Shown one piece after another: positions 17,341-43,716 of a DNA stretch of 43,716 nt (its first letter is position 1; each line of letters opens with the position of its first letter). A program made the position numbers and the translations under genes. This stretch comes from a virus. The stretch is from IMG/VR virus record IMGVR_UViG_3300008625_001685, positions 1 through 43,716 of that record. One strand, given 5' to 3'. The notes below the pieces were generated by a model. The model was given only the letters and a program-made list of their open reading frames with translations, ran no database searches and was not told where the DNA came from.

Positions 17341-17354
17341 AAATAAATAGTTGT

Positions 17355-18144: not shown

Positions 18145-18160
18145 ATATTTAGGAAAACAA

Positions 18161-19449: not shown

Positions 19450-20014
19450 CGATAATCCTGAACAATATCGTTCTATTATAGAAATATTTAGAAAAAAAAC
19501 ATTTCAAGAAGGCAACGAAAGTCTAAGTTACAAAAAATATAATCCTGATAATCCTGATATAGAGACATGGATGGTGTTTAATGAAACCCAAGATCTTATA
19601 TCTATATCTGCAGGCGAAAAATCTCATTACACAAATGATCCAGACATTGCTTTAAGAATTTGCAGATACCATATATTAAAACCATTTCGCAGAACACATT
19701 GTGGTTTAATGATGGCTGAATATCAAATACAATGGGCTAGAGAACATAATTATCAAATTTTATATGTTACTCATGATATTAAAAATAGAGCGTTGAATGA
19801 TTTATATCAACGAAAACGTAAAATGCCATTACCATCATTTAAAAAATGGACAGAAGGTGAGTGGTATAAAAAATTACAACTAGAAAAAAATTTTTTATTT
19901 AAAACAGGAAATATGTTACAATATGTTTATACTATTAGATTGTTTGATCCTAACTTTATATGGAATCCAAAATCAGATTACATAGTAGAAAAAAAACATA
20001 ACGGAGATATTTAA
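19421..20014 (+). CDS. GNAT-like acetyltransferase
   Basis: This 197-residue protein has a central Y-H-I-L-K-P-F-R-R segment with basic residues where GNAT enzymes bind the acetyl-CoA pyrophosphate. It is followed by a helix and Y-Q-I-L-Y-V-T-H-D-I-K-N-R-A-L-N-D-L-Y-Q-R, which resembles GNAT strand beta5 and helix alpha4 (x-N-x-x-x-x-x-L-Y-x-K). It starts 29 bp inside the oxygenase gene. Its stop overlaps by 4 bp the stop of the convergent minus-strand gene. The acceptor is unknown. Confidence 0.6.
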   Translation: MENFLVKKYSDNPEQYRSIIEIFRKKTFQEGNESLSYKKYNPDNPDIETWMVFNETQDLISISAGEKSHYTNDPDIALRICRYHILKPFRRTHCGLMMAEYQIQWAREHNYQILYVTHDIKNRALNDLYQRKRKMPLPSFKKWTEGEWYKKLQLEKNFLFKTGNMLQYVYTIRLFDPNFIWNPKSDYIVEKKHNGDI

Positions 20015-20937
20015 TTAATTGTTTCTTTTCTCATTTGCATGTCTGTAAGACAAATACAAGCATGTTTGTTACATATAATAGGATCATTAGGAAGATTAAT
20101 TATTCGTTTTTTAATATTTCCTAATACCCACTCGCTATCCAGACCGCAAGCAGATCGTGTTATGGAATTATCTTCTCTAATACGGCACCCGTCTATTCCT
20201 GCATAACATTTCCAACCAAAAAAATTATCTTTTCCGGTTAATTTAGCTTCTGCTGGATCATAATACTCATTATTTAAGTATAACAAATTAGTAATTAAAG
20301 ACCAATCTACATTTGTTTTCTTATTAAATAGCTTATTCCATTTTTTATGAGATAGAAATTGTTTTTGTTCATCAGTATAAGGTACATAGGCACCACCCTT
20401 ATCTTCAACTAAAACTCTCATCACATACGAATTTGGATAATTTTTTAATTTGTCGTGTATGTAATAACAATTATCTAAAGACTGTTCCCAATGTGTTGGG
20501 TCTAATAAAACAGATATTACAATGGGTTTATGTTGATCGAAGATTTTACATATATTCACTATATGATCAGATTTAGCGAATTTTGTATGCACAGAAAGTA
20601 TTAAGCCTGACAAATATTTTTGATTTTCTTTCCACCAACGTAAAGTTCTAGAACCATTTGTTATAAAATGAGTATAAACATTTCTATTATATAATTCTTT
20701 CAATAAATTGGATATTTTGGGATTTAATGTAGGTTCTCCGCCAGTAAACCTAGCAGTAAGTTGCTTATATGGATACTTTTTTTTAATTTCATCAATACAC
20801 CATAAAATATCATTATTATCTAATCTAGTATTTCCTGCCCATACTAACGGTGAACAATAAGAACACCGATAATTACAAATTGTGTTTAATACTATGTCAG
20901 TTATAAAAATATTATTATTTTCAAGAGTTAATTTCAT
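20011..20937 (-). CDS. Radical SAM protein with C-terminal Cys-rich auxiliary domain
   Basis: The ATG at 20937 is chosen; the frame is open to 20982 but that part lies inside the upstream gene. C21-x3-C25-x2-C28 (C-N-Y-R-C-S-Y-C) binds the 4Fe-4S cluster and T-G-G-E-P-T (65-70) is the SAM-contacting motif. The last 80 residues hold G-W-K-C-Y-A-G, a further C-G-L, and C-N-K-H-A-C-I-C, a twitch/SPASM-like auxiliary cluster. It lies directly downstream of a QueC-like PP-loop gene with a 17-bp overlap, so a QueE-like or linked nucleobase role is possible, but the auxiliary cysteines are not typical of QueE. It is the last gene of the minus-strand unit. Confidence 0.78.
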   Translation of the reverse strand: MKLTLENNNIFITDIVLNTICNYRCSYCSPLVWAGNTRLDNNDILWCIDEIKKKYPYKQLTARFTGGEPTLNPKISNLLKELYNRNVYTHFITNGSRTLRWWKENQKYLSGLILSVHTKFAKSDHIVNICKIFDQHKPIVISVLLDPTHWEQSLDNCYYIHDKLKNYPNSYVMRVLVEDKGGAYVPYTDEQKQFLSHKKWNKLFNKKTNVDWSLITNLLYLNNEYYDPAEAKLTGKDNFFGWKCYAGIDGCRIREDNSITRSACGLDSEWVLGNIKKRIINLPNDPIICNKHACICLTDMQMRKETIN

Positions 20938-21580
20938 CTGAAAAACCCCATATTCGTTCCTGACACCACCAACATATACCACAATGTCCTAATCCCGGAT
21001 CTTTATTACTTTGTTTTTCCCATTCACATGATCTAGTATGTACAAATAATTTATCTATTAAATTATACTCTCTATATATTTGAGCTATTTTCTTTTTATC
21101 TATATTACACCATGGCGTATAAATTGTATTATCATATAATAGAACTTTGCGTTCGACTGTAGGATCTCTGTTTACTTCTGAAGTTTTTTCTATAAATGTA
21201 TCAGTTATATATTTTGGCGGATTTGCAGTAATGCCTGTATATATAACATTTACTAATTTATTTTTTATATAATAATTTGTTTTATCAAATATATTACTTA
21301 ATGTTTGGTGATCACAAAATGTACTATGATGTTCTATATTTATATTTCCTGTTAACTCAATACATTTTTGAATAACATTATTAGTAATTGTTATATTTTT
21401 AAATTGTCTTGCTTTATTTCCTGACGAAAAAATATAAATCTTGTTTTTAGAATATTTCATTAAAAAATATAAAAGCAAAGAACTATCTGCCCCGCCGCTA
21501 CAACTTATACCGATAGGGCCTTCATATATTTTTAAATTGACCCCAGATAAATCTAATTCTTTAAGTTCGACTAAATTCAT
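20921..21580 (-). CDS. QueC-like PP-loop ATPase with Cys4 zinc site
   Basis: S-C-S-G-G-A-D-S-S-L (26-35) is the PP-loop (S-G-G-x-D-S) of N-type ATP pyrophosphatases. The C-terminus has C185, C200, C203 and C206 in C-G-I-C-W-W-C-Q-E-R, the Cys4 zinc arrangement of QueC (7-cyano-7-deazaguanine synthase). The 219-residue length also fits. QueC converts CDG to preQ0 with ammonia and ATP. QueD and FolE are not in the window. Since general PP-loop enzymes adenylate other carboxylates or amides, the substrate remains open. It is coupled to a radical-SAM gene downstream and a hydroxylase-like gene upstream. Confidence 0.72.
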   Translation of the reverse strand: MNLVELKELDLSGVNLKIYEGPIGISCSGGADSSLLLYFLMKYSKNKIYIFSSGNKARQFKNITITNNVIQKCIELTGNINIEHHSTFCDHQTLSNIFDKTNYYIKNKLVNVIYTGITANPPKYITDTFIEKTSEVNRDPTVERKVLLYDNTIYTPWCNIDKKKIAQIYREYNLIDKLFVHTRSCEWEKQSNKDPGLGHCGICWWCQERIWGFSDEINS

Positions 21581-22209
21581 GGCTCTAATAGATTTGTTAC
21601 TGTTGATACAGATTCTTCGGTTAATTTAACATTCATTATTAATACAATATGATCTTGGTCGTCATTGGCATTAAATACGGTATGTCGTTTGCAAGTATTT
21701 AAAAAATATAAATGACCGTAATTCCAAACAAGTATTTTATTTTGTTCATATATAAAAAATCCCCCATCTAACGGGTTACATACCTGTAAAGGAACAAGTA
21801 GTCTAAAACTATCTATTGTAGATCCAATATTATCAATATGAGTAGGAAAAAATCCCCCAGGAGACAACTTTAATATATGTGATCTAACCAACCATTCTTT
21901 AAAAGGATCACAATAAAACTTTACTACATCATAAACAGGTGTCGGTATAATGAAATCAGATTCAGATATATTTGTATTATTTTCTTTATTATATTCATAC
22001 AAACTATCTAAGTCAGGACCAGGGCCTAAAATACCATCTAAATTAGTTATACTTAATCCCCAACGATTTATATTTTTTCTAGGATTATATTTCGCCCAAT
22101 TATTATTAAATTGTTTTAAATTATTTAATATTAAATCAGGGTGGGTATTTATAGTTAATTCAATTTGATCTCCATAGGCAGTTATGGTGTTAAATAATTC
22201 AAAACTCAT
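21577..22209 (-). CDS. Aspartyl/asparaginyl hydroxylase-like protein
   Basis: This 210-residue protein has G-G-F-F-P-T-H-I-D-N (118-127), giving H124 and D126, and K-R-H-T-V-F-N-A with H176, the two iron-ligand regions of AspH-type hydroxylases. The usual C-terminal Arg that holds 2-oxoglutarate is not obvious, because D-Q-D-H-I-V-L-I is found in its place. Cosubstrate binding may therefore differ. It overlaps the upstream radical-SAM gene by 11 bp and the downstream PP-loop gene by 4 bp. Confidence 0.65.
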   Translation of the reverse strand: MSFELFNTITAYGDQIELTINTHPDLILNNLKQFNNNWAKYNPRKNINRWGLSITNLDGILGPGPDLDSLYEYNKENNTNISESDFIIPTPVYDVVKFYCDPFKEWLVRSHILKLSPGGFFPTHIDNIGSTIDSFRLLVPLQVCNPLDGGFFIYEQNKILVWNYGHLYFLNTCKRHTVFNANDDQDHIVLIMNVKLTEESVSTVTNLLEP

Positions 22210-23353
22210 ATGTTTTATCTCCTGGCCACAACGGCATTTTAGTTCCCTGTTTACGTTTGGGTATTTTGCTATCCGCTGAACTTACACAACTATTACTAAT
22301 ACAAACTTTTGGGCCATCAAATAATTTAAAATCATTATAAATGTAACCTAATGGTTTATCGTCACAACTATAACTTCGTTTTATACTACCGTCTGGTTCT
22401 CGTATTATAATGCTTCTATGCCCACTACTACATTCCCACCCTTTAAAGTTATTAAATTCAAAAGCATTAAACCGTTCTGCTTGGTCCATAAACCAATATT
22501 TTTTATTTTTATCTCTAAATTCTACTTGAAAATGTTGCGGTACATTATTATTTTCTTCCCAGTAAATTGGGTCGGGGCGTTTGACAAATGTTGGTTTAGG
22601 TCGTGTAACATGTTTATTTTTTGCTTCAGTAAATCCACGCTGAGGCATTCCATTGTGTAACTGTTCAAGCATCTTATCATCATATCCTTTAACTACAAAA
22701 TTGGCGTGAGGATCACTTTGTGGCTTTAATGTAACATTAATACCACGTTCGTGAAAATACATTACTTCATCCATTATTTTCCAAAACCATTCAGGAACCA
22801 TTACACAATTAATTGTTATCTGTACATCATGTTCTTGGCATAATTCTAATTTATCTGCTAATAGTTTACGCCGCTTTATTTCACTATTATACTCACGATG
22901 GTAACTGCATGTAATACTTGCTCGATGAAATGGTGCCGCGGCTTTCACATACTTTTCAAACCAACGTATGCCGGGTGAACAGTTGCTCGTCATATGTACA
23001 GATGTATAATTTGTATTTTTAATATCATCACCTAGATACTTGAGTATTTCAAGATAACCAGGATGCAAAGTAGGTTCGCCGCCAGACAAACTAAAATGAA
23101 AACTATTAAATCCTCGCTCCCTAGCTTGTTTTTTAATTTTATCAATTGTTTCAAGACATAATTCTGTAGGTCTATGGTCCTTATCATCGCTCCTCCCGTG
23201 TTCCCAACAATAACTGCAATGGTAATTACAAAAGCGGCCAAGCAACCAAGAGACTGTAAATAAATCTCTGTAGAGCATATTACGTTGGCCTACTCTTACA
23301 AGTTTATCAAATGGAATTTTAGTAAAATCGTATGTACTTGTTATTTTATTCAT
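22199..23353 (-). CDS. Radical SAM protein with SPASM-like C-terminus
   Basis: This 384-residue protein has C42-x3-C46-x2-C49 (C-N-Y-H-C-S-Y-C) and S-G-G-E-P-T (90-95) in the core. Beyond residue about 300, G-W-E-C-S-S-G, S-Y-S-C-D-D and V-C-I-S-N-S-C supply further cysteines for an auxiliary cluster. A long insert (about 230-290) is basic and aromatic. The N-terminal 35 residues precede the core without Cys. It looks like a SPASM/twitch-type tailoring enzyme. The substrate is unknown. It overlaps neighbours by 8-11 bp. Confidence 0.82.
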   Translation of the reverse strand: MNKITSTYDFTKIPFDKLVRVGQRNMLYRDLFTVSWLLGRFCNYHCSYCWEHGRSDDKDHRPTELCLETIDKIKKQARERGFNSFHFSLSGGEPTLHPGYLEILKYLGDDIKNTNYTSVHMTSNCSPGIRWFEKYVKAAAPFHRASITCSYHREYNSEIKRRKLLADKLELCQEHDVQITINCVMVPEWFWKIMDEVMYFHERGINVTLKPQSDPHANFVVKGYDDKMLEQLHNGMPQRGFTEAKNKHVTRPKPTFVKRPDPIYWEENNNVPQHFQVEFRDKNKKYWFMDQAERFNAFEFNNFKGWECSSGHRSIIIREPDGSIKRSYSCDDKPLGYIYNDFKLFDGPKVCISNSCVSSADSKIPKRKQGTKMPLWPGDKTYEF

Positions 23354-24245
23354 AATGAATGTATTTTGTTATTGCAAAATCTATATCAGAAACATCATTA
23401 AATAATTGAATATTTCTTTCTACCCATTTTTTATATTCTTCAAACAAGCCATCCTTAAATATATCTAATTGGTTAGGAGTAATAAAAGAAATATTAGGTT
23501 TAGTTTCTTTTATTTTATTTAATATTTTTAAATATTCATTAAACATATCATTCTTTTCAAACTCATTAAAACAAGCATCCGGATTTTTTGATGATGACAT
23601 TAATTGAAGCATTTTATATACCGTACTCTCTTCTGGTAGACCATATGGTAGTTTTTGTTTTCTATTTTTTTTTACTTTTTTAATTAATACATCGTATGGT
23701 TCAGCTTGATCACCAACTTCTCTCGTCCTGTTCCTTTCTGTTACCTCTAATGTTGGCTCGTTTTGTTCTTTCCAATCATTATATCGGCAAAGAAATTCAA
23801 ATTCATTTTTTACTCGTAAAATATGAACCCATAATATTCTTAAAGCAAAACTATTTGATACAAAAAAAATACATTTGGTATTTGGTAATATACTAGTTAA
23901 GTTATAATCATGATGGGCTAGCCAAAAAGTTCTTTCATATGATTTACCCCAATTATTAATATAATATATATATTCTTCAGATTCGAGATCAATTATATCT
24001 AGATATTCTTGTTTTGTTTTAAAATATGTATCAAATGAGTATATATATTTCAATAGGTGTGTTTCTGGTTCGTCGGTTGCTTCTTTAAACCTATGCCCAC
24101 TTACTTCTGGCCAACCTGGAATTGTGGTTTGGCTATGATATCTATTCCACGGTTTAGTTGAATACATTATATCAGGCAAAATATAACTACCTATAAATTC
24201 GCCGCCGGCTCCTGGCGGATATACCAATACAGTTTGTTCAGTCAT
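23346..24245 (-). CDS. P-loop, sulfotransferase-like protein
   Basis: This 299-residue protein has an N-terminal strand-loop V-L-V-Y-P-P-G-A-G-G-E-F-I-G (6-19), which resembles the PAPS 5'-phosphosulfate-binding loop of sulfotransferases more than a Walker A motif, since it lacks the GK-S/T. A second strand, C-I-F-F-V-S-N-S (about 126-133), could be the 3'-phosphate site. The C-terminal 100 residues are helical and charged. It is an assignment by topology only; kinase-like or structural P-loop proteins remain possible. Start and end are tightly packed with radical-SAM and SGNH genes. Confidence 0.5.
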   Translation of the reverse strand: MTEQTVLVYPPGAGGEFIGSYILPDIMYSTKPWNRYHSQTTIPGWPEVSGHRFKEATDEPETHLLKYIYSFDTYFKTKQEYLDIIDLESEEYIYYINNWGKSYERTFWLAHHDYNLTSILPNTKCIFFVSNSFALRILWVHILRVKNEFEFLCRYNDWKEQNEPTLEVTERNRTREVGDQAEPYDVLIKKVKKNRKQKLPYGLPEESTVYKMLQLMSSSKNPDACFNEFEKNDMFNEYLKILNKIKETKPNISFITPNQLDIFKDGLFEEYKKWVERNIQLFNDVSDIDFAITKYIHYE

Positions 24246-24259
24246 TAAGAATTGTTTTT

Positions 24260-25285
24260 TTATTCTCTCTCATTTATTTTTTCTAAAAAATATTTTGCTA
24301 TCCAATTATGTGATAAATGGCCAGGATGTCCTAGTTCTCGTCCAACATCATTAGAATCCATAGTATCAAAATTGCCTTCGTCAAACCATTTATTAAAAGG
24401 TATTTCTTTACTATCTGAATATAGATATACAAACTTCGTTACTCCATTTTTATTACATAGATATCGAATTGCATCAATATTTTTCTTAGCATTAGTTTTT
24501 GATTGATATGCATTTGAAAGTTCGTATATTAGATAATATTTAAAATATTCACGTATTTCTCTTGTCTGACCATGACTAACAGTACCAAGGTTTACAAAAG
24601 AAAACATTCTTGATTTATTTGCACAACTACTTGTGTCTAATCCTAACTTTTGTTGTTCAAAGTAATTATTAACTTTATGATCTATATCTACAAACGAACG
24701 TCTACCTACGTTTGGTCCTAGCATACATACATATTTGGGTTTTAAAATAGGTAACCAATATGATGCATATGTATAACATGCATCGTGTCCGGCACCTGGT
24801 AATCCAAAATTCCAACAATTTAAGTCTAATTCTTTACTTATTTTAACCGGCCATATATCATTATAATGCATTCCAGTTCCATATGTTAAACTGCATCCTA
24901 AGAACATAATACCGTCACCTTCGTATGGATCCGATGTTCGAAATCCGTGGTTATTATAATAATAAGTTAATGCTTCGGGTGGTACAACTTCAGAACTATT
25001 AACCCATACCTCATTTTTATTCTCTTTGTCATATTTTGGGTCAATGTCTTTTATAAAATCATAATTAGATAGCCATCCGGCGTTTTCTAGTATAGATTTT
25101 GCTTTTGCATTTTTTAAGTGATCGTTCCAAGTATCTCTGTTATCGCCACAGTCCCACAAATAAGTTCTATTTGTTTTCCAACTATATTCATGAAAGTATG
25201 GTATTTCTTCATTGTAATTAAATGCTCCGTCTTTCCACCAGTCAACTACTTTATCAAAATCTACTTTATTGGCGTTCATTGTCAT
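24260..25285 (-). CDS. SGNH hydrolase-like protein
   Basis: In this 341-residue protein, N-H-G-F-R (112-116) is followed by F-L-G-C-S-L-T-Y-G-T-G (128-138) with the nucleophile Ser, then N-F-G-L-P-G-A-G-H-D (block II). The C-terminal G-H-P-G-H-L-S-H-N-W has the H-P-G-x-x-S/G-H form of the catalytic Asp/His block, with the acid not obvious. It belongs to the same subfamily as the proteins at 11557 and 36989. The N-terminal 110 residues are rich in Trp and Asp. It is coupled by ATGA to the upstream radical-SAM gene. Ester hydrolysis or acyl transfer on a carbohydrate is a guess. Confidence 0.72.
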   Translation of the reverse strand: MTMNANKVDFDKVVDWWKDGAFNYNEEIPYFHEYSWKTNRTYLWDCGDNRDTWNDHLKNAKAKSILENAGWLSNYDFIKDIDPKYDKENKNEVWVNSSEVVPPEALTYYYNNHGFRTSDPYEGDGIMFLGCSLTYGTGMHYNDIWPVKISKELDLNCWNFGLPGAGHDACYTYASYWLPILKPKYVCMLGPNVGRRSFVDIDHKVNNYFEQQKLGLDTSSCANKSRMFSFVNLGTVSHGQTREIREYFKYYLIYELSNAYQSKTNAKKNIDAIRYLCNKNGVTKFVYLYSDSKEIPFNKWFDEGNFDTMDSNDVGRELGHPGHLSHNWIAKYFLEKINERE

Positions 25286-36967: not shown

Positions 36968-36988
36968 TACAGTTTTTTATCATACATA

Positions 36989-37774
36989 TCAAAAAATATC
37001 TTCACCATTTTCAAGGTCTTTTTCCTTTATCTTATTGAAAGCATATTCTCCTAATACTTTATTTTCATTCACACCCAAATGAAATAAGTCTCTAGCATAT
37101 GTAGTTTCTAATGGTTTAATATCTTTAATCTTATAAGGACTACCTTCAGGTAAATGTATTATTTTACAATCATATTCTTGACATATTTGGTTTAATAAAT
37201 TTGTATATATAAACCTTCTCCATTCTTGATTCTTTTCATTAACAAATAAATCTAAATATTCCCTTTTATACTTACTATCAGAAGGTAAACCATTACCACA
37301 ATTACCAGCAAAAAATTCATCATCGCCATGATCTTCATTCACCCACCAATTTAATCTAGATATTGGTGGATGTTTAAATACATAAATTTTAGGTTTTAAT
37401 ATAGGTATCCAATATAGTGCTCTTTGGGTCGCATGTGACCAATCAGACCCACCAATGGCAATATTATGATGGAAAACTTCATAATGATCAGCTGTGATTT
37501 TACTCCACATCATATCTAATGGCATTCCTGTTCCAACTGTTTGTGAACAACCATTAAATAATATTGTACAATTTTTCAAAAATGAATCAGAACGATAACC
37601 ATGTTCATTAAATGTATATTTTATATCAAAATCAATCCAACCTTGCTTTTCAAGTTCATCATAATTATGTTTGAGATTATAATCATATATTTCTTTAGTA
37701 TCAGCATATAACCATGAAATGCTTTGATTACTATATTTAAAATATTTTGAAACACCATGTTTCCATTTATCCAT
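36989..37774 (-). CDS. SGNH hydrolase-like protein inserted between split radical SAM halves
   Basis: I use the ATG at 37774 (MDKWKHG), which overlaps the upstream stop by 8 bp, instead of a start at 37840. The 261-residue product has E-H-G-Y-R (57-61) followed by L-F-N-G-C-S-Q-T-V-G-T-G (72-83) with the nucleophile Ser-77, and I-A-I-G-G-S-D as block II. F-H-L-G near the C-terminus is a degenerate block V. It belongs to the subfamily of 11557 and 24260. Its position between a radical-SAM core and a separate SPASM gene suggests it entered an originally continuous gene. Confidence 0.7.
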   Translation of the reverse strand: MDKWKHGVSKYFKYSNQSISWLYADTKEIYDYNLKHNYDELEKQGWIDFDIKYTFNEHGYRSDSFLKNCTILFNGCSQTVGTGMPLDMMWSKITADHYEVFHHNIAIGGSDWSHATQRALYWIPILKPKIYVFKHPPISRLNWWVNEDHGDDEFFAGNCGNGLPSDSKYKREYLDLFVNEKNQEWRRFIYTNLLNQICQEYDCKIIHLPEGSPYKIKDIKPLETTYARDLFHLGVNENKVLGEYAFNKIKEKDLENGEDIF

Positions 37775-38363
37775 ATTTAACTTCTCCACTATTAGTTCTA
37801 TGAGACCATATAGTTCTAAACTTTTTGAAACCTTCATCAATTGACATCTGCTTGGCTTTTTCCATCAGATGATGATTATGATCAAAAACAATGAATTGCC
37901 AGGTTGCTTTTCCACCTGCGTTTATAAATGTTCTCCAATTTTCTTGTACTTTTTTAAAATTTGACCCTACTCTGTACTGTTCTAATGATTGTTGATCGAT
38001 TCCATCAATACCAAAAAATACCGAAACTTTTCTTTCTCCTAACTCCTTCCAAAAATTAACAGTCCTTGTTGATCCATTAGTAGCAATATTTACACCAGTA
38101 AAGGATAAAAAATAATCTACAATATCAATAAACTGAGGATGAGTAGTTGGTTCATCAACAGAACCACAAAAGTTTATAACTTGTAAGTTAGGTAAGTAAC
38201 CAGGAGGAATCCATTTTTTTAAATCATTTAATTTTATGTAAGACTTATTAAGTATATGTCCTACTTCATTATTCATTTCTTGACGCAAACATCCGGGACA
38301 ATGAATATTGCAATAACTAGTAAGCTCTATATCTATCCATTCAACTGTATCTTTATGCCACAT
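37767..38363 (-). CDS. Radical SAM core protein lacking its SPASM domain
   Basis: In this 198-residue protein, C18-x3-C22-x2-C25 (C-N-I-H-C-P-G-C) binds the cluster and F-C-G-S-V-D-E-P-T stands where GGEP is usual. The chain stops just after F-I-V-F-D-H-N-H-H and G-F-K-K-F-R. In the paralog at 38363 this is the point where the linker to the SPASM domain begins. A detached SPASM gene lies two genes downstream. The two products may assemble into a two-subunit enzyme, or the pair may be decaying. There is no frameshift inside the core. Confidence 0.78.
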   Translation of the reverse strand: MWHKDTVEWIDIELTSYCNIHCPGCLRQEMNNEVGHILNKSYIKLNDLKKWIPPGYLPNLQVINFCGSVDEPTTHPQFIDIVDYFLSFTGVNIATNGSTRTVNFWKELGERKVSVFFGIDGIDQQSLEQYRVGSNFKKVQENWRTFINAGGKATWQFIVFDHNHHLMEKAKQMSIDEGFKKFRTIWSHRTNSGEVKYG

Positions 38364-39424
38364 TATATAAATTGCTCCTTAAATGCGTCAAACCCTATGC
38401 CACATTTATTTGCACAAACTTTAAGTTTACCATCGTTAACACTAGAACATGACCATGAATCTTCTATTGCTTTAAAAAATGGACCTTCTACAATTTCCTT
38501 TAATGTATGCTTTCTTAAACTAATATTATCTGGGTCTCCAATTAATTTCCAAATTGGTGCTTCGCGAGGTCCCCAATACCATTTATATTGTTGTCCTGCT
38601 GTCCAACAACAAGGAAAAACATGTCCTTCTGCTGTAACAAATATTTCTGACTTTTCTATTGCTTTACAACTTATAGGTGTCTTATCATAATATGCATCCA
38701 TACTACCATGTTCGGTTACTAAATCTTTTTCTTTTTTAAGAGCAGAATTAACATATTTGTCTTTTGGCTTTTCTAACTTTTGTGTTTCTTCACCTTTTCT
38801 ATTTGTTGCTTGATGTGACTCTTTACCTTTATGTTGAACTGTGGAAAAGAATCTCCCTGTCTTTTTAACTTGAAATTTTTCAAAGCCCATATCTTTTGAG
38901 AGTTGTTTTGCTTCGTCTACTTGATGCTCATTATGTTTAAACACTATAAAATCCCATTTAGCACGGCCGCCTCTTTTAATAAATGCTTTTGCATTTTCCA
39001 TTACTCGTTCCCATTTAACTTTTTGTCTATATAAATGATTGGTATCTTCTAAACCATCTATGCTAAATGTTATAACTACATCAAGATCTGCTAAATCTTC
39101 CCAAAAGTAATCTAATCTAGCACCTCCGTTAGTATTCATACCTAACCACATTTTCGGATTAGCATGTCTAAAATATCTAAATCCTTCACCTGCATAACTG
39201 CTTACACATGGATCACCTAAGTTACCACACATATACATAGAATCTAATTGCTCTACAAAACTGCAAGGAAACATTTCATAATAATCTGCAGAACTTAACA
39301 TTGCATTATGAAGATATGGATTATCTTTACCACCATTTATATTGCGGTCGCATTGCGGACAGGCGGCATTACATCCTTGGGTTGGCTCTATATGAACACT
39401 TTTTATATCTTCATATCTATACAT
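38363..39424 (-). CDS. Radical SAM/SPASM protein (intact)
   Basis: In this 353-residue protein, C18-x3-C22-x2-C25 (C-N-A-A-C-P-Q-C), Y-M-C-G-N-L-G-D-P-C (GNxGDP in place of GGEP) and N-T-N-G-G form the core. A charged linker (about 200-235) leads to a SPASM-like domain with I-S-C-K, F-P-C-C, W-S-C and C-A-N-K-C-G. The SPASM family includes enzymes that modify peptides and other substrates; the GNxGDP variant forms a separate branch here with 37767. It starts directly after the stop of the small basic protein at 39425. Confidence 0.85.
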   Translation of the reverse strand: MYRYEDIKSVHIEPTQGCNAACPQCDRNINGGKDNPYLHNAMLSSADYYEMFPCSFVEQLDSMYMCGNLGDPCVSSYAGEGFRYFRHANPKMWLGMNTNGGARLDYFWEDLADLDVVITFSIDGLEDTNHLYRQKVKWERVMENAKAFIKRGGRAKWDFIVFKHNEHQVDEAKQLSKDMGFEKFQVKKTGRFFSTVQHKGKESHQATNRKGEETQKLEKPKDKYVNSALKKEKDLVTEHGSMDAYYDKTPISCKAIEKSEIFVTAEGHVFPCCWTAGQQYKWYWGPREAPIWKLIGDPDNISLRKHTLKEIVEGPFFKAIEDSWSCSSVNDGKLKVCANKCGIGFDAFKEQFI

Positions 39425-39517
39425 TTAATCATATATGGGTCGAGGAGTTGAATCTTTTTTTCTTAATAGCTTTCGGCGTTTATACCAATTTTTAATTTTT
39501 TTAATTATCGAGCACAT
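39425..39517 (-). CDS. Tiny basic protein (30 aa) ending P-I-Y-D
   Basis: A 30-codon minus-strand frame fills the only gap between two longer genes: it overlaps the upstream stop by 17 bp and ends directly against the next ATG. The peptide is MCSIIKKIKNWYKRRKLLRK followed by K-D-S-T-P-R-P-I-Y-D. The Trp-Tyr, basic and terminal I-Y-D pattern resembles the 46-residue protein at 41951. Such short basic peptides with a P-x-I-Y ending recur, as I recall, in marine T4-like phages. A membrane- or nucleic-acid-contact role is possible; the function is unknown. Confidence 0.6.
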   Translation of the reverse strand: MCSIIKKIKNWYKRRKLLRKKDSTPRPIYD

Positions 39518-40535
39518 TTCGTATCCCCTCATCTTGCAATAAGTATTCTACAATTAAATCACAGCCAGCTTCGTTTGGATGACAAGAAGGCAAATAATAA
39601 TTTTGCATCCAATTTTGCCATATATCATCTATCCCCTTTTCATTTTTTTCACCATAATCTAACATAGATTTAATTCGAAAAGGAAATTCATTCTCTTCTA
39701 ATAAAATATATGAAATGGGGTGTTCTTTGTACATATCTTGATCTATATTAAATAAATCTCTAAATTTTAGTAAAACATTGCCTTGTTTTTTACCTAGTTC
39801 ATATGTGCTTTTTGGTAATAACTTTATAAGTTCTTCTTTTTCCCACATAGGCAAAAGCCATCTAGGTTCAACCCAATCGTATAACCAAATACCTAATTCA
39901 AAATGTTTAGACCAAAAATGTTTTAAACTCCAAATAAAATTAATAAACTGTTCTATATAATATTGACTATGGAAATAATTTGCATAATTTTCAATACAGC
40001 AGTTATTTAATACAGGTTCAAAATATTCTTCGTCTGTTCGTTTGTTGTATTTTTCTTTTATACTATTTTTACATTGTTCAGGATACCATGTTTCAGTATC
40101 ATTGTTATCTAAGTATTCATCTGTTACTGTTAAGTAATTAGCCCGCAAAGAAGGCCGTGCATATTTTTCCGGTGAATCAAAATATTCTATATTGTGATAA
40201 AAAACATTATCTCGTTGAATATAATTTTTTCCTTCTATTATTTCTGATTTATTTACAATGCCGTTGTTTAATTTATGAGTTACAGATGCTAAGTATCTAA
40301 AATCTGCTAACTCTAATATTATTTTTTTGCAATAGTTTTCCTTTGCTAAAAAATATAACATTTGTTGAGCATATTCCCAACTTGTTGCACCAACAGCAAA
40401 ACTATGAAATTCATAATTTGGATATAATTTTCCTAGCTTGTTAATAAAAAATTTAGAAAATCTTTCTTCAAAAGTACCAAAATCGTCTTGAGGTACACTA
40501 TAACTAGTTCCTATTATTGCTACTTTTTCTTTCAT
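39501..40535 (-). CDS. Divergent SGNH hydrolase-like protein
   Basis: In this 344-residue protein, the N-terminal strand V-A-I-I-G-T-S-Y-S (5-13) carries the block-I Ser, with Thr for the usual Asp/Cys. A-V-G-A-T-S-W supplies block II and C-H-P-N-E-A-G near the C-terminus is the H-P-N/G block with the catalytic His. Unlike the other three SGNH proteins here it lacks the N-H-G-F-R segment and begins directly with the nucleophile strand. The centre is rich in Tyr, Asn and Glu. It overlaps the upstream gene by 4 bp. Confidence 0.65.
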   Translation of the reverse strand: MKEKVAIIGTSYSVPQDDFGTFEERFSKFFINKLGKLYPNYEFHSFAVGATSWEYAQQMLYFLAKENYCKKIILELADFRYLASVTHKLNNGIVNKSEIIEGKNYIQRDNVFYHNIEYFDSPEKYARPSLRANYLTVTDEYLDNNDTETWYPEQCKNSIKEKYNKRTDEEYFEPVLNNCCIENYANYFHSQYYIEQFINFIWSLKHFWSKHFELGIWLYDWVEPRWLLPMWEKEELIKLLPKSTYELGKKQGNVLLKFRDLFNIDQDMYKEHPISYILLEENEFPFRIKSMLDYGEKNEKGIDDIWQNWMQNYYLPSCHPNEAGCDLIVEYLLQDEGIRNVLDN

Positions 40536-41293
40536 TTATATCCTATTAACATAAATCTTGTATATTTTTCTAATTCAAGTTCACCTTCATATATAATATT
40601 ACTTAACGGTGCTTGCTGTTTAAATTCATTAATATCTTTAACACAATTGACATGTTCTGGTAATTCAAAATAGTTATTTGTTTGGAGTGCAACTAACTTA
40701 TTCCTTGGTATTGCATTAAACCATTCTGTAAATTTTTCAATATGCTCACAACTTGTGTTAATAATTGTATCTGGTATCTCATGGCATAATCTTGGTTCGC
40801 CGTTTACATTTGTAGTATAATAATGATATTCTCCATTTGTATTCGATTTTTCTTTTAACATATATGTAAAAAAAGAAACAATATCTAATGTTGTTGCTTT
40901 AAATGTCCAATTGTCTGCTTTCCATGGTTCATTTAAATCTTCTGCTATTTTCCAACAACTATCATCTATATCAAAACTCCTTATTTTATCTACATAAATA
41001 TTCTCATCTTCAAACATCATAGTCGCAAGGGTGCCATACCATCCGGCACATATAAAAACTATACCTAAATCAATACCTTTAAGTTTTTTTAATAGCCATT
41101 GTTTAGATTTTATTTGTCCTTGTGATAATGCATCTCCTATTTTATCATTATGTTTTTTTAATCCATGAATTAATTGTGATGGTATTTCTTCTTGCAATTT
41201 ATCCCAATATTTGTCACCAGATAAGTAGATTTTTTTTGACATTTTTTTAGGCCAAAGAAGTTGTACTCTATTATGTATTTCTTCTAAATTCAT
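40532..41293 (-). CDS. Methyltransferase-like Rossmann protein
   Basis: In this 253-residue protein, L-G-I-V-F-I-C-A-G-W-Y-G-T (75-87) followed by a helix and I-R-S-F-D-I-D (about 103-109) resembles the SAM-binding motif I and acidic motif II of class I methyltransferases. I-I-N-T-S-C-E-H-I is a plausible motif IV. The N-terminal 65 residues are helical and basic. It might instead be a nucleotide-sugar or nicotianamine-type Rossmann enzyme. It lies between glycosyltransferase-like and SGNH genes and overlaps the former by 23 bp. Confidence 0.55.
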   Translation of the reverse strand: MNLEEIHNRVQLLWPKKMSKKIYLSGDKYWDKLQEEIPSQLIHGLKKHNDKIGDALSQGQIKSKQWLLKKLKGIDLGIVFICAGWYGTLATMMFEDENIYVDKIRSFDIDDSCWKIAEDLNEPWKADNWTFKATTLDIVSFFTYMLKEKSNTNGEYHYYTTNVNGEPRLCHEIPDTIINTSCEHIEKFTEWFNAIPRNKLVALQTNNYFELPEHVNCVKDINEFKQQAPLSNIIYEGELELEKYTRFMLIGYK

Positions 41294-41951
41294 TTTCTAA
41301 CCATTCAAAATCGTTTACTTTATCTAACATTTCAGGATTATCTCTATATTTTAACCCCCATTCTTTACCATCTTTTGCTCCTCGCATTCCGTCCTTACCA
41401 TATGGTTTATCGGCACCTACTGTACACCAAATATGTAATCGTGTTTCTGTTTCTTCGTCTTTTTGGTTATGTATTATTTTGCTGGCGAGTTTAGTACATT
41501 CTCTAAATGCAGATTTATATGTGCTAAACGGACTGTAATTAAATCCATTAGTATTTGATACTTGTGGCATAGGTTTAAATTTGCCAGCAACCGATGTAGT
41601 AAAATCTATAAGCCAGTTATCTGCTTCACGTATAACTTTTGTAGGAAATAACTTTACACCACCATTACCGTAAATTAATCCATTGATAGGATTCTTTGCA
41701 CGCCAAACAAATATATGATCTTGTTGATGCCATTCTGGTTCAAAACTAAAATCAAAGTCAGGTTCAAGAATTGCATCAGCGTCTATAACATAAAAGTTTT
41801 TTGTCATAGCTTGTCTAGCACATTCTTTGTGGCCGTTAAAAATACCTTTAATTCCGTGAACACGTTTTGCATGAGGAGCGACTAACTGAAGCAACTCGTA
41901 ATGTTCATCGGCAAATGGTTCGTCGTAACTTAGAAAAAATACATCAAGCAT
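41271..41951 (-). CDS. Glycosyltransferase-like protein (GT-A fold, DxD)
   Basis: In this 226-residue protein, an N-terminal strand F-F-L-S-Y-D-E-P is followed by Y-V-I-D-A-D-A-I (54-61) with the metal-binding D57-x-D59 of GT-A glycosyltransferases. I-Y-G-N-G-G-V-K-L and the F-V-W-R-A strand match sugar-nucleotide-binding regions. The donor and acceptor are unknown. The start at 41951 overlaps the stop of the small basic protein (TGATG). Modification of phage DNA bases or of a surface glycan are both possible. Confidence 0.65.
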   Translation of the reverse strand: MLDVFFLSYDEPFADEHYELLQLVAPHAKRVHGIKGIFNGHKECARQAMTKNFYVIDADAILEPDFDFSFEPEWHQQDHIFVWRAKNPINGLIYGNGGVKLFPTKVIREADNWLIDFTTSVAGKFKPMPQVSNTNGFNYSPFSTYKSAFRECTKLASKIIHNQKDEETETRLHIWCTVGADKPYGKDGMRGAKDGKEWGLKYRDNPEMLDKVNDFEWLENEFRRNT

Positions 41952-42091
41952 CAGTCATATATAAATGGATCTTCTTCACGAAGTTTTTTTAATTTTTTTC
42001 GATATTTTATTTCTAATACAATCCAATCATATGGCCATCGAACATAATACCATATTCTTCTTAAGACATTTTTAATTTTTCTTTTTTCCAT
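41951..42091 (-). CDS. Small basic protein (46 aa) ending D-P-F-I-Y-D
   Basis: This 46-codon minus-strand frame starts inside the nucleotidyltransferase gene (31-bp overlap) and ends in a TGATG junction with the glycosyltransferase-like gene. It has a basic N-terminus, an aromatic middle W-Y-Y-V-R-W-P-Y-D-W (residues 14-23), a basic helix Y-R-K-K-L-K-K-L-R-E-E and the terminus D-P-F-I-Y-D. The amphipathic aromatic/basic layout suggests membrane-surface or protein binding. Its last ten residues resemble those of the protein at 39425. I recall similar proteins as unannotated genes in marine T4-like phages. Confidence 0.65.
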   Translation of the reverse strand: MEKRKIKNVLRRIWYYVRWPYDWIVLEIKYRKKLKKLREEDPFIYD

Positions 42092-42438
42092 AATTCCCTT
42101 ATTGCTGTTGCAGAAATATTTTCTATTTCATCTGGCAGTCTTTCCAAAGTAATAGAATAACCTACATCACGACCATACGTAATGTCTACAATATTAGGTA
42201 CTTGCATTATAACATAATCTTTATCAATTGTAAAGTTATGTTTAGTTAAATCTTCTGTAATTATTTCTTTTACTTCTTCAAACTTTAACGGGTTATTATT
42301 ATTTACTGGCATGTTTCTAACAAATATAGCAACTTGGCCTGTTCTTTTCATTGCTTGTTTGAATAGCTCTCGATGCCCGCCATGCCATGGTTGATACCTA
42401 CCCATCATTTGAACTGTAGGTTTTGTGCTATCTATCAT
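42061..42438 (-). CDS. Cytidylyltransferase-like nucleotidyltransferase
   Basis: This 125-residue protein has G-R-Y-Q-P-W-H-G-G-H (13-22), containing the H-x-G-H nucleotidyltransferase signature. The C-terminal I-S-A-T-A-I-R (about 111-117) corresponds to the I-S-S-T-x-x-R motif. This is the minimal core of the NMN adenylyltransferase/CTP:phosphoglycerol cytidylyltransferase superfamily. It could activate a sugar, polyol or choline-like phosphate or make NAD. It is shorter than NadR/NadM enzymes (160-180 residues). It is ATGA-coupled to the upstream oxygenase gene. Confidence 0.75.
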   Translation of the reverse strand: MIDSTKPTVQMMGRYQPWHGGHRELFKQAMKRTGQVAIFVRNMPVNNNNPLKFEEVKEIITEDLTKHNFTIDKDYVIMQVPNIVDITYGRDVGYSITLERLPDEIENISATAIRELWKKEKLKMS

Positions 42439-43082
42439 ATGTTAATATCCTTAGTTTGATTTAATAATAATTGTTTCGTTACATCAGTAATAGTACCTGT
42501 AACTTGAATAAGACTTCTAGGTTCCCAGCCTGCATTAGCACTTGCATGAGGTATATTTGGCCAGTCAAACCAAACAAGATCTCCCTTTTGCCATTTAAGA
42601 AAACTAGTACCCATTTGAAAAAAATGTCCTGGTTTCCAATCTTCTAAAAATATAAAAAATCTAGCAACTTGACTTGTATCTTTGTTCATTTCGTGTTGTT
42701 TGTCTATGTGTAAGTTTAACATTTCTCCAGGGTATTGTATATGAAATGCTTGTTTGGTGTTTTCTAATCCCAAACTATCTAACATGCTTTTAAACACACC
42801 TTGAAATTCAAAATGTTTTCGAAATATAACTGTATCTTCGTCCATACCTGCTCTACGCAAATCTTCTAATTCTGATTCTAATTGTGCATGGTCTGGATGA
42901 TACTTTTTGCCTCTAGTTGCCCAAGTCTTGTGTTTTGCTTGTTTAACAACATCAGCAAGTTCACGAGACCAATCACCTTTAAATCTTGCTAGCCAACGAT
43001 AGTCGTAACCAGCAAGAGGTTTACTGTTCCAGTTAAAATGATAATTGCTTTGTTGTTTGCCTGCTTCCCAATTACTATTCAT
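42435..43082 (-). CDS. 2OG-Fe(II) oxygenase-like protein
   Basis: The frame is open to a GTG at 43097, but the ATG at 43082 overlaps the upstream stop in the manner typical here, giving 215 residues. M-L-N-L-H-I-D (121-127) supplies H125 and D127, N-I-P-H-A-S supplies H179, and W-E-P-R-S-L-I supplies Arg-189. W-F-D-W just before is typical of AspH-like hydroxylases. The N-terminal 110 residues are helical and unassigned. It is coupled to the nucleotidyltransferase. Confidence 0.72.
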   Translation of the reverse strand: MNSNWEAGKQQSNYHFNWNSKPLAGYDYRWLARFKGDWSRELADVVKQAKHKTWATRGKKYHPDHAQLESELEDLRRAGMDEDTVIFRKHFEFQGVFKSMLDSLGLENTKQAFHIQYPGEMLNLHIDKQHEMNKDTSQVARFFIFLEDWKPGHFFQMGTSFLKWQKGDLVWFDWPNIPHASANAGWEPRSLIQVTGTITDVTKQLLLNQTKDINI

Positions 43083-43716
43083 AAACTGATGCTTCACATG
43101 CTTTTTTAACTTCTTTGTCTAACCAATGATCCTCAATATCATGTATATATTTTGCATTAGCATTTTCATTTATTATTTCGTCTACCTTGGGATTTGTCCA
43201 ATCTATAGGAAATTTTAAAATTTCAATAAGTGATTCTAAATAACGATGCTTCCACATAATTAGACTTTCATAACTTAAAAAATTAATAAAATGCTCTTCG
43301 CTTATTTCTTCTATTGCTCGATTAGCATCATTAAATGTGACCTTTCCCCGAACTCGTTCTTGTTGAAATTCTACAATAGATTTTTCACGAGATATAACTG
43401 CTATAATAGGTGATACTTTTTGTTTTTCAACTTCTTGGCAAAATTCTAATACAGGCGGAACTCTATTCCCGCCTTTATATACATAAGGTATAGAACAAGA
43501 TGTAACAAAATGAGAATAATCTTTGGATAACTCTAAAAGCGTAGGATCTGCCCATGCATTAGCAAAAGGTTCTAAATGATGGCCTTCCCAATATTGTTCC
43601 TGTAACTTTTGCCATCCGTATACACTTTTATGTAAGCCAAATATTTTAGCCCACATATGATTGCCGGACCCTTGAGGTCCGACAACTATTAGCATTTTTC
43701 TATCAAATGCAGTCAT
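43075..43716 (-). CDS. P-loop, sulfotransferase/kinase-like protein (at window edge)
   Basis: The ATG is at the very last bases of the window; the protein could be complete at 213 residues or begin further upstream. M-L-I-V-V-G-P-Q-G-S-G-N-H-M-W (8-22) is a P-loop-type strand-loop-helix. It lacks the canonical GKS/T, which favours a sulfotransferase-like over a kinase fold. I-S-R-E-K-S-I-V-E-F (about 108-117) resembles the 3'-phosphate-binding segment R-x-x-x-x-x-x-S. The substrate is unknown. It is the first visible gene of the minus-strand transcription unit. Confidence 0.5.
   Translation of the reverse strand: MTAFDRKMLIVVGPQGSGNHMWAKIFGLHKSVYGWQKLQEQYWEGHHLEPFANAWADPTLLELSKDYSHFVTSCSIPYVYKGGNRVPPVLEFCQEVEKQKVSPIIAVISREKSIVEFQQERVRGKVTFNDANRAIEEISEEHFINFLSYESLIMWKHRYLESLIEILKFPIDWTNPKVDEIINENANAKYIHDIEDHWLDKEVKKACEASVYE

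Follow-up and report, generated by a model that had tools for sequence, protein, structure and literature searches.

A jumbo-type phage with a radical-SAM island of 47 kb or more and a five-gene core common to Bdellovibrionota

INTRODUCTION

What would a phage make with ten radical-SAM cores packed into one run of genes? The question is raised by the window, by which we mean the whole stretch analysed here (43,716 nt, IMG/VR record IMGVR_UViG_3300008625_001685), for which a preliminary description had proposed a 23.7-kb transcription unit forming a dedicated pathway. The source is a large aquatic phage of jumbo type whose radical-SAM island spans 47 kb or more. The window covers the left part of this island, and the island's recurrent core leads to Bdellovibrionota chromosomes.

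RESULTS

Extent and gene content of the island

Motif and PF04055 matches agree with the earlier count of ten CxxxCxxC cores across nine minus-strand proteins, whose ORFs end at 20011, 22199, 25282, 26568, 27941, 30372 (two cores), 34619, 37767 and 38363 (genes are named here by their lower coordinate; Table 1). All ten cores match PF04055 (E 9.9e-6 to 2.4e-15), seven of them over the Pfam cut-off; the three below it (34619, 26568 and the second core of 30372) all exceed the curated cut-off of 170 bits for NF033640 (N_Twi_rSAM, N-terminal twitch domain), to which six of the ten cores belong, the remaining four scoring 24-32 bits as non-members. The NCBIfam entry for NF033640 (twitch domain-containing radical SAM protein) defines a subfamily, and its description assigns no reaction. 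The putative twitch cysteines C10, C28, C91 and C94 are invariant in all ten rows of alignment A1.

The single-strand, nearly gapless layout also stands: the 22 genes share one strand, overlaps occur at 17 of 21 junctions when mechanical first starts of the ORFs are used, and the two widest intergenic gaps in the window's island measure 76 and 109 bp. In shuffled sequence, promoter- and terminator-like sites are just as common as they are here. The 23.7-kb size of the putative transcription unit does not hold, as the island runs past the window edge. The window equals bases 31777-75492 of a 99-kb companion contig (G106), on which every one of the 26 ORF calls between base 75000 and the end of the contig is on the minus strand, the first overlapping the window's last gene. 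Seven further PF04055 matches lie beyond the window, and the island on this contig holds 17 radical-SAM matches within 47 kb.

Table 1. Features of the window, with the evidence for each
Coordinates	Strand	Feature	Evidence
13380..20014	+	Block: desaturase-like, PLP-like, Asp/Arg hydroxylase, TauD, methyltransferase-like, 2OG, GNAT-like	desaturase- and GNAT-like by eye
20011..20982	-	Radical SAM, weakly viperin/QueE-like	PF04055 over cut-off
20921..21580	-	PP-loop ATPase with QueC-like zinc C-terminus	PF06508 26.6 bits (cut-off 22)
21577..22209	-	Probable 2OG oxygenase, Asp/Arg-hydroxylase-like	PF05118 20.4 bits (under cut-off 22.6)
22199..23353	-	Core radical SAM 3	PF04055 E 6.2e-13
23346..24245	-	P-loop-like start (by eye)	no family better than E 0.08
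24260..25285	-	SGNH-like hydrolase by motif	weak DUF6473, E 3.4e-4, below cut-off
25282..26571	-	N_Twi radical SAM	NF033640 257.5 bits
26568..27944	-	N_Twi radical SAM	NF033640 250.3 bits
27944..28927	-	PLP aminotransferase-like half of fused protein 27941-30382	PF00155 17.6 bits (below cut-off 19.7)
28928..30382	-	N_Twi radical-SAM half of fused protein 27941-30382	NF033640 320.6 bits
30375..31730	-	Second N_Twi radical SAM of protein 30372-34625	NF033640 323.5 bits (companion contig)
31731..33050	-	First N_Twi radical SAM of protein 30372-34625	NF033640 256.8 bits (companion contig)
33051..34625	-	N-terminal 525 residues of protein 30372-34625	glycosyltransferase-like by eye
34619..36019	-	Core radical SAM 1, N_Twi_rSAM, predicted N-terminal twitch cluster	NF033640 420.9 bits; CxxxCxxC at residue 147
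36000..36656	-	2OG oxygenase, Asp/Arg-hydroxylase family	PF05118 E 5e-12
36656..36967	-	Stand-alone SPASM domain	PF13186 22 bits (cut-off 21.5); dN/dS 0.14
36989..37840	-	SGNH-like hydrolase by motif	no Pfam match
37767..38363	-	Radical SAM without SPASM domain	PF04055 over cut-off; phrog_21308 E 8.9e-31
38363..39424	-	Core radical SAM 2, C-terminal SPASM	PF04055 and PF13186 over cut-off
39501..40535	-	SGNH-like hydrolase by motif	no Pfam match
40532..41293	-	Core protein, predicted class I SAM-methyltransferase fold	model pLDDT 91.7
41271..41951	-	Core protein, predicted GT-A fold, probable glycosyltransferase	DxD
42061..42438	-	Cytidylyltransferase-like nucleotidyltransferase	PF01467 26.3 bits (cut-off 21)
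42435..43097	-	2OG-oxygenase-like, motif only	no Pfam match
43075..43716	-	P-loop protein by eye	no Pfam match

Among the other enzymes named in the preliminary description, the nucleotidyltransferase (42061) and the PP-loop ATPase (20921) both pass Pfam cut-offs; PF06508 (QueC domain) aligns only to the C-terminal part of 20921, a protein whose SGGxDS and four Cys are invariant across 19 rows. One of the three 2OG-type oxygenases passes PF05118 (36000), another falls just below it (21577), and 42435 has no match. The three SGNH hydrolases are assigned by motif, with the weak DUF6473 match for 24260 as the sole family support and none for 36989 and 39501. The sulfotransferase-like proteins matched no family, and a PDB search with 43075 found no sulfotransferase. 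The N-terminal part of protein 30372-34625 matched no Pfam family at E 0.01. Viperin (NF038283) was rejected as an identity for 20011 and 22199 (50.6 and 42.7 bits, cut-off 180), and QueE for 20011 (34.8 bits, cut-off 260.1).

Two further domains had been overlooked. One is the C-terminal PLP-aminotransferase-like domain of 27941, with Asp178, Lys206 and Arg214 invariant in 10 rows; in two other loci (L168 and L093) it is a separate gene overlapping a radical-SAM gene. The other is the lone SPASM domain 36656, the likely partner of radical-SAM gene 37767. Between these two sits 36989, whose place is taken by a different SGNH-like gene in L194.

The adjoining plus-strand block has PF05118, PF02668 and PF13640 matches over cut-off. 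Seven of its genes have relatives on the radical-SAM strand in L051, L052, L056 and L057, a kinship to radical-SAM neighbours that had gone unremarked, and in two bacterial loci, L091 and L107, distant relatives of block genes adjoin the core. The block possibly belongs to the island system.

Recurrence and the five-gene core

The window block is found at 99-100% identity in two other IMG/VR records, and most of its gene order is kept at 59-88% identity in a related lineage; neither a chimeric assembly nor independent scattering of the genes, the two outcomes that would have spoken against the island, is borne out. Fourteen genes have a nearest relative that is at least 61% identical, and their dN/dS is 0.07-0.30 (34619, 0.09; 38363, 0.07; 37767, 0.10); the picture of a dense, recurrent, phage-borne island under purifying selection is supported. 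Each of seven other records of 232-257 kb has 7-23 radical-SAM matches, and all 58 related viral loci of at least 18 kb have 6-12 cores.

Five genes form a recurrent core in phages and on Bdellovibrionota chromosomes, namely radical-SAM genes 34619, 38363 and 22199, the GT-A-fold gene 41271 and the methyltransferase-fold gene 40532; the genes outside it, a shifting array of additional radical-SAM, oxygenase, PLP, PP-loop, hydrolase and transferase genes, are interchangeable among loci. The first is present in 58/58 viral loci of at least 18 kb, loci which were themselves found with it. Relatives of 38363 at 42% identity or more occur in 53 of these and in 10 of 13 Bdellovibrionota loci, and relatives of 22199 at 50% or more in 35 and 11, respectively. 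The AlphaFold2 model of 41271 (pLDDT 91.8) gives Z 11.2 to B4GALNT1 by structure comparison (VIA), with IspD tied at Z 11.0, and Z 9.6-9.9 (rmsd 4.6-4.8, over most of the model) to hyaluronan and cellulose synthases; across 24 rows of its putative DxD, D59 is invariant and D57 nearly so. The methyltransferase fold of 40532, not noticed earlier, is predicted from a model with VIA Z 16.6 to the N-methyltransferase NodS.

The three core radical-SAM enzymes are 44-65% identical to their Bdellovibrionota relatives. Their trees split phage from Bdellovibrionota, with one exception (L111, out of place in one tree), and fit one passage between the two groups.

A candidate product and its alternatives

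Recurrence of the core in phages and bacterial chromosomes makes a dedicated pathway plausible. Glycan, peptide, lipid and nucleobase, offered earlier as equal options for its product, are not equally likely, because sister genomes favour a sugar-containing product. The island of one (G111), which follows virion and tail-fibre-like genes, encodes UDP-glucose dehydrogenase, a protein of the NAD-epimerase/GDP-mannose-dehydratase family, a DegT aminotransferase and a StrB-like amidinotransferase (PDB 1bwd, E 1.2e-96). Its UDP-glucose dehydrogenase has relatives in 6 of 80 viral loci and its DegT and epimerase proteins have none in the 80, these loci being at most 21 kb and shorter than whole islands. 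Carbamoyltransferase is found in 17 of the 80, CTP_transf_3 among 58 scanned neighbour representatives, and GT2 in 6 of 72 scanned neighbours of bacterial loci and in three proteins of the Bdellovibrionota genome G005. Islands also contain SSF and TctA solute transporter families.

The reading we favour, at a probability of roughly 0.4, is that the island synthesizes and tailors a glycoconjugate on the infected cell's surface. The core would make one sugar-containing scaffold: 41271 would transfer or polymerise a sugar, the SPASM/twitch radical enzymes would act on C-H bonds of the sugar or a linked amino-acid residue (by epimerisation, dehydrogenation or C-C bond formation), and 40532 would cap the scaffold. 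Accessory enzymes might add amino groups (PLP enzymes), amide or guanidino groups (PP-loop and amidinotransferase), carbamoyl groups and hydroxyl groups (2OG enzymes), while the SGNH hydrolases would remove esters. The product would go to the infected cell's envelope, where it would probably alter phage receptors and exclude rival phages; this would account both for the exchange of accessory genes and for the site beside tail-fibre genes. Several observations count against a glycoconjugate: the window lacks a clear gene for nucleotide-sugar synthesis; neither the window nor the best 25 of 78 neighbour families showed a recognisable flippase or polymerase; the UDP-glucose dehydrogenase, DegT and epimerase proteins of G111 have few or no relatives in the viral loci; within the window's own lineage, over 10 kb separate 22199 from the rest of the core; and the GT-A fold also covers nucleotidyltransferases, as the IspD score illustrates. 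The class-I-type PLP domain and Asp/Arg hydroxylases, for their part, suggest amino-acid substrates as much as sugars.

It is also possible, though we think it rather unlikely, that the island's product is small and diffusible, a natural product such as a guanidinylated, carbamoylated amino-acid or aminocyclitol, directed against competitors or used to steer the host. The amidinotransferase of G111 is of the StrB/HsvA/SxtG type, and the carbamoyltransferase, the PLP-radical-SAM fusion, the numerous tailoring enzymes, and AMP-binding and nitroreductase families among neighbour representatives (some off the island strand) would suit such a compound. However, the scan of proteins revealed no assembly-line synthase, no exporter and no self-resistance gene, amidinotransferase relatives occur in few loci (6/80 viral, none in the window), and a GT-A-fold protein sits within the core.

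We consider it unlikely that the enzymes modify the phage itself, altering either its DNA bases (to 7-deazaguanine-like forms, by way of QueC/QueE-like proteins) or the proteins of its tail fibres and virion. The QueC-like 20921, the weak QueE similarity of 20011, QueE- and FolE-like genes seen by eye on the companion contig and the tail-fibre neighbours in G111 point that way, but 20011 is far under the QueE cut-off, the PP-loop family has three copies within one island (L084), radical enzymes far exceed the apparent need of base modification, and the core is also on bacterial chromosomes. Improbable as well is support of host metabolism during infection, by cofactor or redox chemistry at low oxygen. 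Radical-SAM enzymes are oxygen-sensitive, which would fit, as would the SSF and TctA transporters, yet the same unit encodes oxygen-using 2OG enzymes (one clear, two probable), and those equivalog models of known cofactor enzymes that matched were all far below their cut-offs. A metabolic role of this kind was proposed in 2010 for Campylobacter phages (PMC2853527). RiPP-type maturation of a ribosomal precursor peptide is very unlikely: SPASM/twitch domains are typical of peptide maturases, and SkfB (E 3.4e-11) heads the PDB matches of the N_Twi profile, but the overlapping junctions and gaps of at most 109 bp in the window's island leave scant room for a precursor gene, and RiPP maturase models were nowhere near their cut-offs.

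The surface glycoconjugate reading has a bolder extension, which we hold only tentatively and think doubtful, that the five genes form an undescribed pathway making a new class of radically edited glycoconjugate on the surface of Bdellovibrionota, and that jumbo phages took this pathway over once and then used it as a scaffold for exchanging tailoring enzymes. Some island-bearing phages may, as part of this, infect Bdellovibrionota; if so, large phages of predatory bacteria would be carrying their host's surface chemistry.

Small clusters such as L104 make the question tractable, namely what three co-occurring radical enzymes produce together with a GT-A protein and a methyltransferase. The answer would give NF033640 members a reaction, shed light on the radical-SAM islands recorded in phages since 2010, and could tie phage infection to the surface chemistry of a predatory lineage.

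Comparison with known systems

Bdellovibrionota clusters resemble the island in their relatives of 34619 (up to 65% identity), 22199 (up to 65%) and 38363 (up to 51%), and in more distant relatives of 41271 and 40532. They differ in that a single genome has several clusters and a larger number of paralogs (12-33 NF033640 matches in each of genomes G001-G006, not all over cut-off), with housekeeping genes close by; the smallest consist of four genes, in L104.

That phages normally carry at most a few radical-SAM enzymes, as the preliminary description assumed, was already untrue: the 2010 account of Campylobacter phages gives 11 such proteins for CP220 and 12 for CPt10, and describes their radical-SAM/amidinotransferase cluster as an interchangeable module (PMC2853527; record NC_027997). 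That cluster has five radical-SAM genes and an amidinotransferase, with two nucleotide-diphospho-sugar-transferase-like genes as well in CP220. The window likewise has at least five radical-SAM genes in one cluster but lacks the amidinotransferase (tblastn with the CP220 and G111 proteins), relatives of the CP220 enzyme being found in 6/80 viral and 5/82 bacterial loci. Related records have up to 23 PF04055 matches, against 11-12 proteins per Campylobacter phage genome. The best similarity of 38363 to CP220/CPt10 is 21.6% identity (E 1e-7), and no Campylobacter phage was matched in searches with 34619 and 25282. Three of six CP220 radical-SAM proteins match 42, 58 and 56 of 81 sequences (the 80 viral loci and the window) and the other three 2, 0 and 0, for which generic radical-SAM similarity could suffice.

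In pelagimyophages (2020), radical-SAM cassettes come and go in a host-recognition cluster, located between VrlC and gp14, with glycosyltransferase and tail-fibre genes, a setting that we count as an analogy for the surface-glycoconjugate reading; the passages concerned mention the cassettes, without a core, family or function (PMC7029224). Of 50,697 phage records, 34619 matched three in all, and only Vibrio phages K566 and K567 (OZ196521, OZ196593) over more than 80% of its length. These too have several radical-SAM genes near one another, but at 22.8% identity to 34619 and in a small cluster. Some contigs related to the window reach 19-23 radical-SAM domain matches, in a system of a core plus swappable parts. 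Phage radical-SAM clusters are thus already known from CP220/CPt10 and the pelagimyophages; what is new here is the larger size of the island and a core held in common with Bdellovibrionota.

Radical-SAM content and extent of the island

The window, an IMG/VR virus record, spans 43,716 bases, and between 20011 and its right end the minus strand encodes 22 genes (genes are named here by their lower coordinate). The ten CxxxCxxC radical-SAM cores in nine proteins counted there by the preliminary description are present, and all ten match the radical-SAM profile PF04055, seven above the Pfam cut-off. Six cores (34619, both cores of 30372, 27941, 26568 and 25282) exceed the curated cut-off of NF033640, the N_Twi_rSAM family with an N-terminal twitch domain, whose four twitch cysteines are invariant across ten aligned rows. 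Among the matches listed, 20011, 22199, 37767 and 38363 reach no curated NCBIfam cut-off; identification of 20011 and 22199 as viperin or QueE was rejected, with scores far under cut-off. A SPASM domain is present in 38363, 36656 is a SPASM domain alone, and a SPASM search of 37767 gave no match.

A radical-SAM gene separate from a SPASM-only gene was seen in the window and at three other loci (Table); in the window and L194 the two are separated by an SGNH-like gene, and in L177 and L181 they are adjacent. For both halves of the window pair dN/dS (0.10 and 0.14) indicates purifying selection, so they may work as two proteins.

The island continues past the right edge of the window on G106, the 99-kb companion contig that contains it: all 26 ORF calls from base 75000 to the contig end are on the minus strand, and seven further PF04055 matches bring the total to 17, spread over 52.4-98.3 kb. 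Seven other viral records (232-257 kb) gave 23, 17, 19, 7, 19, 8 and 19 PF04055 matches at E 0.001.

Further readings were rejected. The motif TATAAATA, which we take to be that of T4-type late promoters, occurs 5 times in the window against 14.5 expected, leaving such promoters unsupported. A selenocysteine reading was dropped since NF033640 matches with one TGA in contigs G108 and G111 extend beyond an apparent ordinary stop. A sulfotransferase label for 43075 found no support among Pfam families or in a PDB search. The labels SGNH, QueE-, FolE-, GNAT- and desaturase-like denote motifs recognised by eye.

Features located in the window and in related loci
Sequence	Position	Strand	Feature
Window	3241-4227		ADP-ribosyltransferase-like sequence (by eye)
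Window	6423-7523		AAA ATPase
Window	13380-20014	+	Adjoining block: desaturase-like, PLP-like, Asp/Arg hydroxylase, TauD, methyltransferase-like, 2OG genes
Window	36656-38363		Separate radical-SAM and SPASM-only genes
L194	11062-13327		Same
L177	3493-4417		Same
L181	1510-2510		Same
G106	31777-75492		Window
L174 (G106, left of window)	2753-3592		QueE-like gene (by eye)
L174	2-421		FolE-like gene (by eye)
L171	490-1965		Solute transporter gene (SSF)
L178	7614-8903		Solute transporter gene (TctA)
L084	8976-11754		Three 20921-type PP-loop genes in tandem
G001:C1	745-774 kb		Run of >12 N_Twi radical-SAM genes (L164, L165)
L167	9924-11286		Small membrane-type protein pair (HTTM-like by eye)
L167	10405-11286		No Pfam match
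L169	9818-11145		Small membrane-type protein pair (HTTM-like by eye)

Phage origin and a related lineage

Chimeric assembly, named earlier as a finding that would undo the description, is not borne out: the same genes are present at 99-100% in two further IMG/VR records, each drawn from a metagenome of its own (L009, 99 kb; L010, 37 kb). A phage DNA polymerase (phrog_262) is encoded in the left part of the G106/window sequence, and the AAA ATPase there is 50% identical to its counterpart in Pseudomonas jumbo phages of 284-288 kb. By these signs the window is phage DNA, with no sign of chimera. The ADP-ribosyltransferase-like sequence also lies in this phage left part. The QueE-like and FolE-like genes of the same phage stand apart from the island, and 7-deazaguanine DNA modification is a possible role for them.

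A related lineage keeps most of the gene order. L194 retains the run 38363-37767-SGNH-36656-36000-30372-27941-26568 and L185, from a different contig of the lineage, retains 30372-27941-26568-[new gene]-25282-22199-21577-20921, with protein identities to the window of 59-88% (SGNH gene excepted, 28%). The 34619 relative (61%) precedes 38363, whereas in the window it follows 36000; a 40532-like gene (29%) is on the opposite strand, no 41271 relative was found in the L194/L185 lineage, and no 20011 relative follows 20921. Measured against the nearest relative with <97% identity, the 14 genes that have a relative of at least 61% give dN/dS values of 0.07-0.30; these are approximate, dS being about 1 or above for most. 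The ratios for 24260 (0.47) and 20011 (0.74) are uninformative, as their relatives reach no more than 31-32% identity, and six island genes had no relative in the comparison pool.

A core with interchangeable genes

Island DNA has no similarity in 50,697 phage records, and at the protein level 34619 and 38363 match three of these records each, 25282 two, and 22199, 41271 and 20011 none. A search with 34619 gave 120 viral matches, from which 80 loci were kept, 58 of them at least 18 kb; these loci are partly non-independent (115 tree rows represent 95 different sequences). Every one of the 58 has 6-12 radical-SAM cores (motif plus profile match). Of these loci, 53 contain a relative of 38363, 48 one of 41271, 37 one of 40532 and 35 one of 22199, and this recurrence runs against the independent scattering of genes that had been named as the other possible refutation. 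By contrast, 25282, 26568 and the radical-SAM half of 27941 each have close relatives (at least 45%) in two of the 58. Judged by gene content, the island is a core (radical-SAM 34619, 38363 and 22199, GT-A-fold 41271 and methyltransferase-fold 40532) plus swappable parts.

Genes 41271 and 40532 overlap or touch in 31 of the 36 viral loci holding both. Seeding on 38363 returned 45 loci, 42 of them new and many short, with a 34619 relative in 30/42 and a 41271 relative in 28/42. Seeding on 22199 returned ten; within 10 kb, none of them has an above-threshold relative of 34619 or 38363, and 22199 itself is 11 and 15 kb from other core genes in the window. Several 22199-seeded contigs (the same as those of L189, L194-L196 and L203) have 34619/38363 farther away, so in the window's lineage 22199 is separated from the rest of the core.

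The AlphaFold2 model of 41271 (pLDDT 91.8) gave a VIA Z of 11.2 to B4GALNT1 (rmsd 2.5, 132 aligned), tied with IspD cytidylyltransferases (Z 10.5-11.0); with hyaluronan and cellulose synthases the alignment spans most of the model (Z 9.6-9.9, rmsd 4.6-4.8). For 40532 (pLDDT 91.7) the N-methyltransferase NodS scored Z 16.6, with many other methyltransferases tied or just under. PDB sequence searches with both proteins were empty at E 1.

Relatives in Bdellovibrionota

An N_Twi alignment scan of 84,980 species genomes, using one peptide pattern, yielded 119 relatives, of which the best 80 make up 75 loci. Among these best 80, 56 of the 75 loci have Bdellovibrionota-type titles (Bdellovibrio-, Bacteriovorax-, Halobacteriovorax- or Oligoflexia-type) and identity to 34619 reaches 65%. 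The core lies near housekeeping genes on bacterial contigs of 200-936 kb, such as protease S49 and DUF58 (L095) or HPPD (L104), and the 72 neighbours scanned at bacterial loci include tRNA-synthetase, UvrD, YceG and tRNA-methyltransferase families. Thirteen Bdellovibrionota loci were hand-picked (at least 14 kb, 34619 relative of at least 50%), omitting L094 as a near-copy of L095 and excluding L089, L092, L102, L103, L108 and L109 as phage contigs that were probably mis-binned. The title of L091 says just "bacterium", and its genome, G006, was returned within the phylum of G001. Relatives of 22199 occur in 11 of the 13, of 38363 in 10, and of 41271 and 40532 in seven each.

Six of the genomes behind these bacterial loci, G001-G006, have 12-33 NF033640 matches each at E 0.001, which are not proven member counts because 14/14 control genomes also match at that threshold (0/14 over cut-off). 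The core is patchy in Bdellovibrionota, since 34619 matches at E <= 1e-90 in only 4 of 97 phylum genomes, including G001, the search centre, and the pre-selected G006. The radical-SAM run on the G001 chromosome also holds amidinotransferase-, PLP- and SGNH-like genes, and that genome has 33 NF033640 matches; small membrane-type protein pairs recur in Bdellovibrionota radical-SAM clusters.

The 38363 tree groups all 13 Bdellovibrionota rows in a single clade (100/100). The 22199 tree, without outgroup, unites the phage rows in one clade (100/99) that also contains two MAG rows with foreign labels. In the 34619 tree, built by a quick method with long-branch outgroups, the phage rows belong to one set of 88 rows (support 99) nested among Bdellovibrionota; the set also takes in six MAG rows with foreign labels as well as L111, a Bdellovibrionales row, and six long-branch viral rows outside it are probably paralogs. 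L111 is weakly placed in the phage set for 34619 and groups with Bdellovibrionota for 22199. The groups L093/L098, L094/L095, L104/L105 and L096/L097/L101 recur across the three trees. Phage-type genes are carried by the six excluded loci, contigs assigned to MAGs of Planctomycetota, Neisseriaceae, Rickettsiales, Gammaproteobacteria, Chloroflexi and Acidimicrobiaceae; every tree that includes them places them with the phage rows, and they are probably mis-binned phage DNA.

The trees fit vertical descent in Bdellovibrionota plus one passage to or from phages; with outgroups very long or absent, they allow either direction. The kinship with Bdellovibrionota genes may point to a gene donor and not to the phage host.

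Neighbouring genes and likely product

Family scans covered representatives of the neighbour genes. The G111 island, which comes after virion and tail-fibre-like genes, includes NAD epimerase/GDP-mannose dehydratase, UDP-glucose dehydrogenase, DegT aminotransferase and TctA families, and an amidinotransferase with best PDB match 1bwd, inosamine-phosphate amidinotransferase (E 1.2e-96), then HsvA and SxtG. DegT and epimerase were rejected as common island genes, with relatives in 0/80 viral loci. A carbamoyltransferase occurs in 17/80 viral loci, and GT2 is the commonest family at bacterial loci (6/72 neighbours). The radical-SAM/PLP pair fused in 27941 exists unfused in L168 and L093, as a pair of genes that overlap, and the PLP half of 27941 retains the Asp, Lys and Arg expected in a working PLP fold. 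Taken together, the G111 families, carbamoyltransferase, GT2 and the radical-SAM/PLP pair point by inference to a product that would contain sugar, bear amino groups and be located in or on the envelope.

The plus-strand block adjoining the island may belong to the same system, since seven of its genes have relatives on the radical-SAM strand in L051/L052/L056/L057 (near-copies of one phage, with identical 34619) and distant relatives lie beside the core, four in L091 and three in L107. Phage islands also contain solute transporter genes and, in one case, tandem PP-loop genes (Table).

Relation to known phage radical-SAM systems

In the parts of the open-licence literature consulted we found no description of the five-gene core or an N_Twi island in phages, nor of the core's sharing with Bdellovibrionota chromosomes, the N_Twi dominance or the scale. 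Radical-SAM-rich phage islands are not new in kind. Campylobacter phages CP220 and CPt10 have 11 and 12 radical-SAM genes, and an interchangeable module that includes an amidinotransferase accounts for five of these (PMC2853527). Such genes are also reported for phage vB_CcoM-IBB_35 (PMC3322345), and pelagimyophages have radical-SAM cassettes within a host-recognition cluster (PMC7029224). The CP220 amidinotransferase has relatives in 6/80 viral and 5/82 bacterial loci here, two of the five bacterial ones being the same Bdellovibrionota place and one a probable phage contig.
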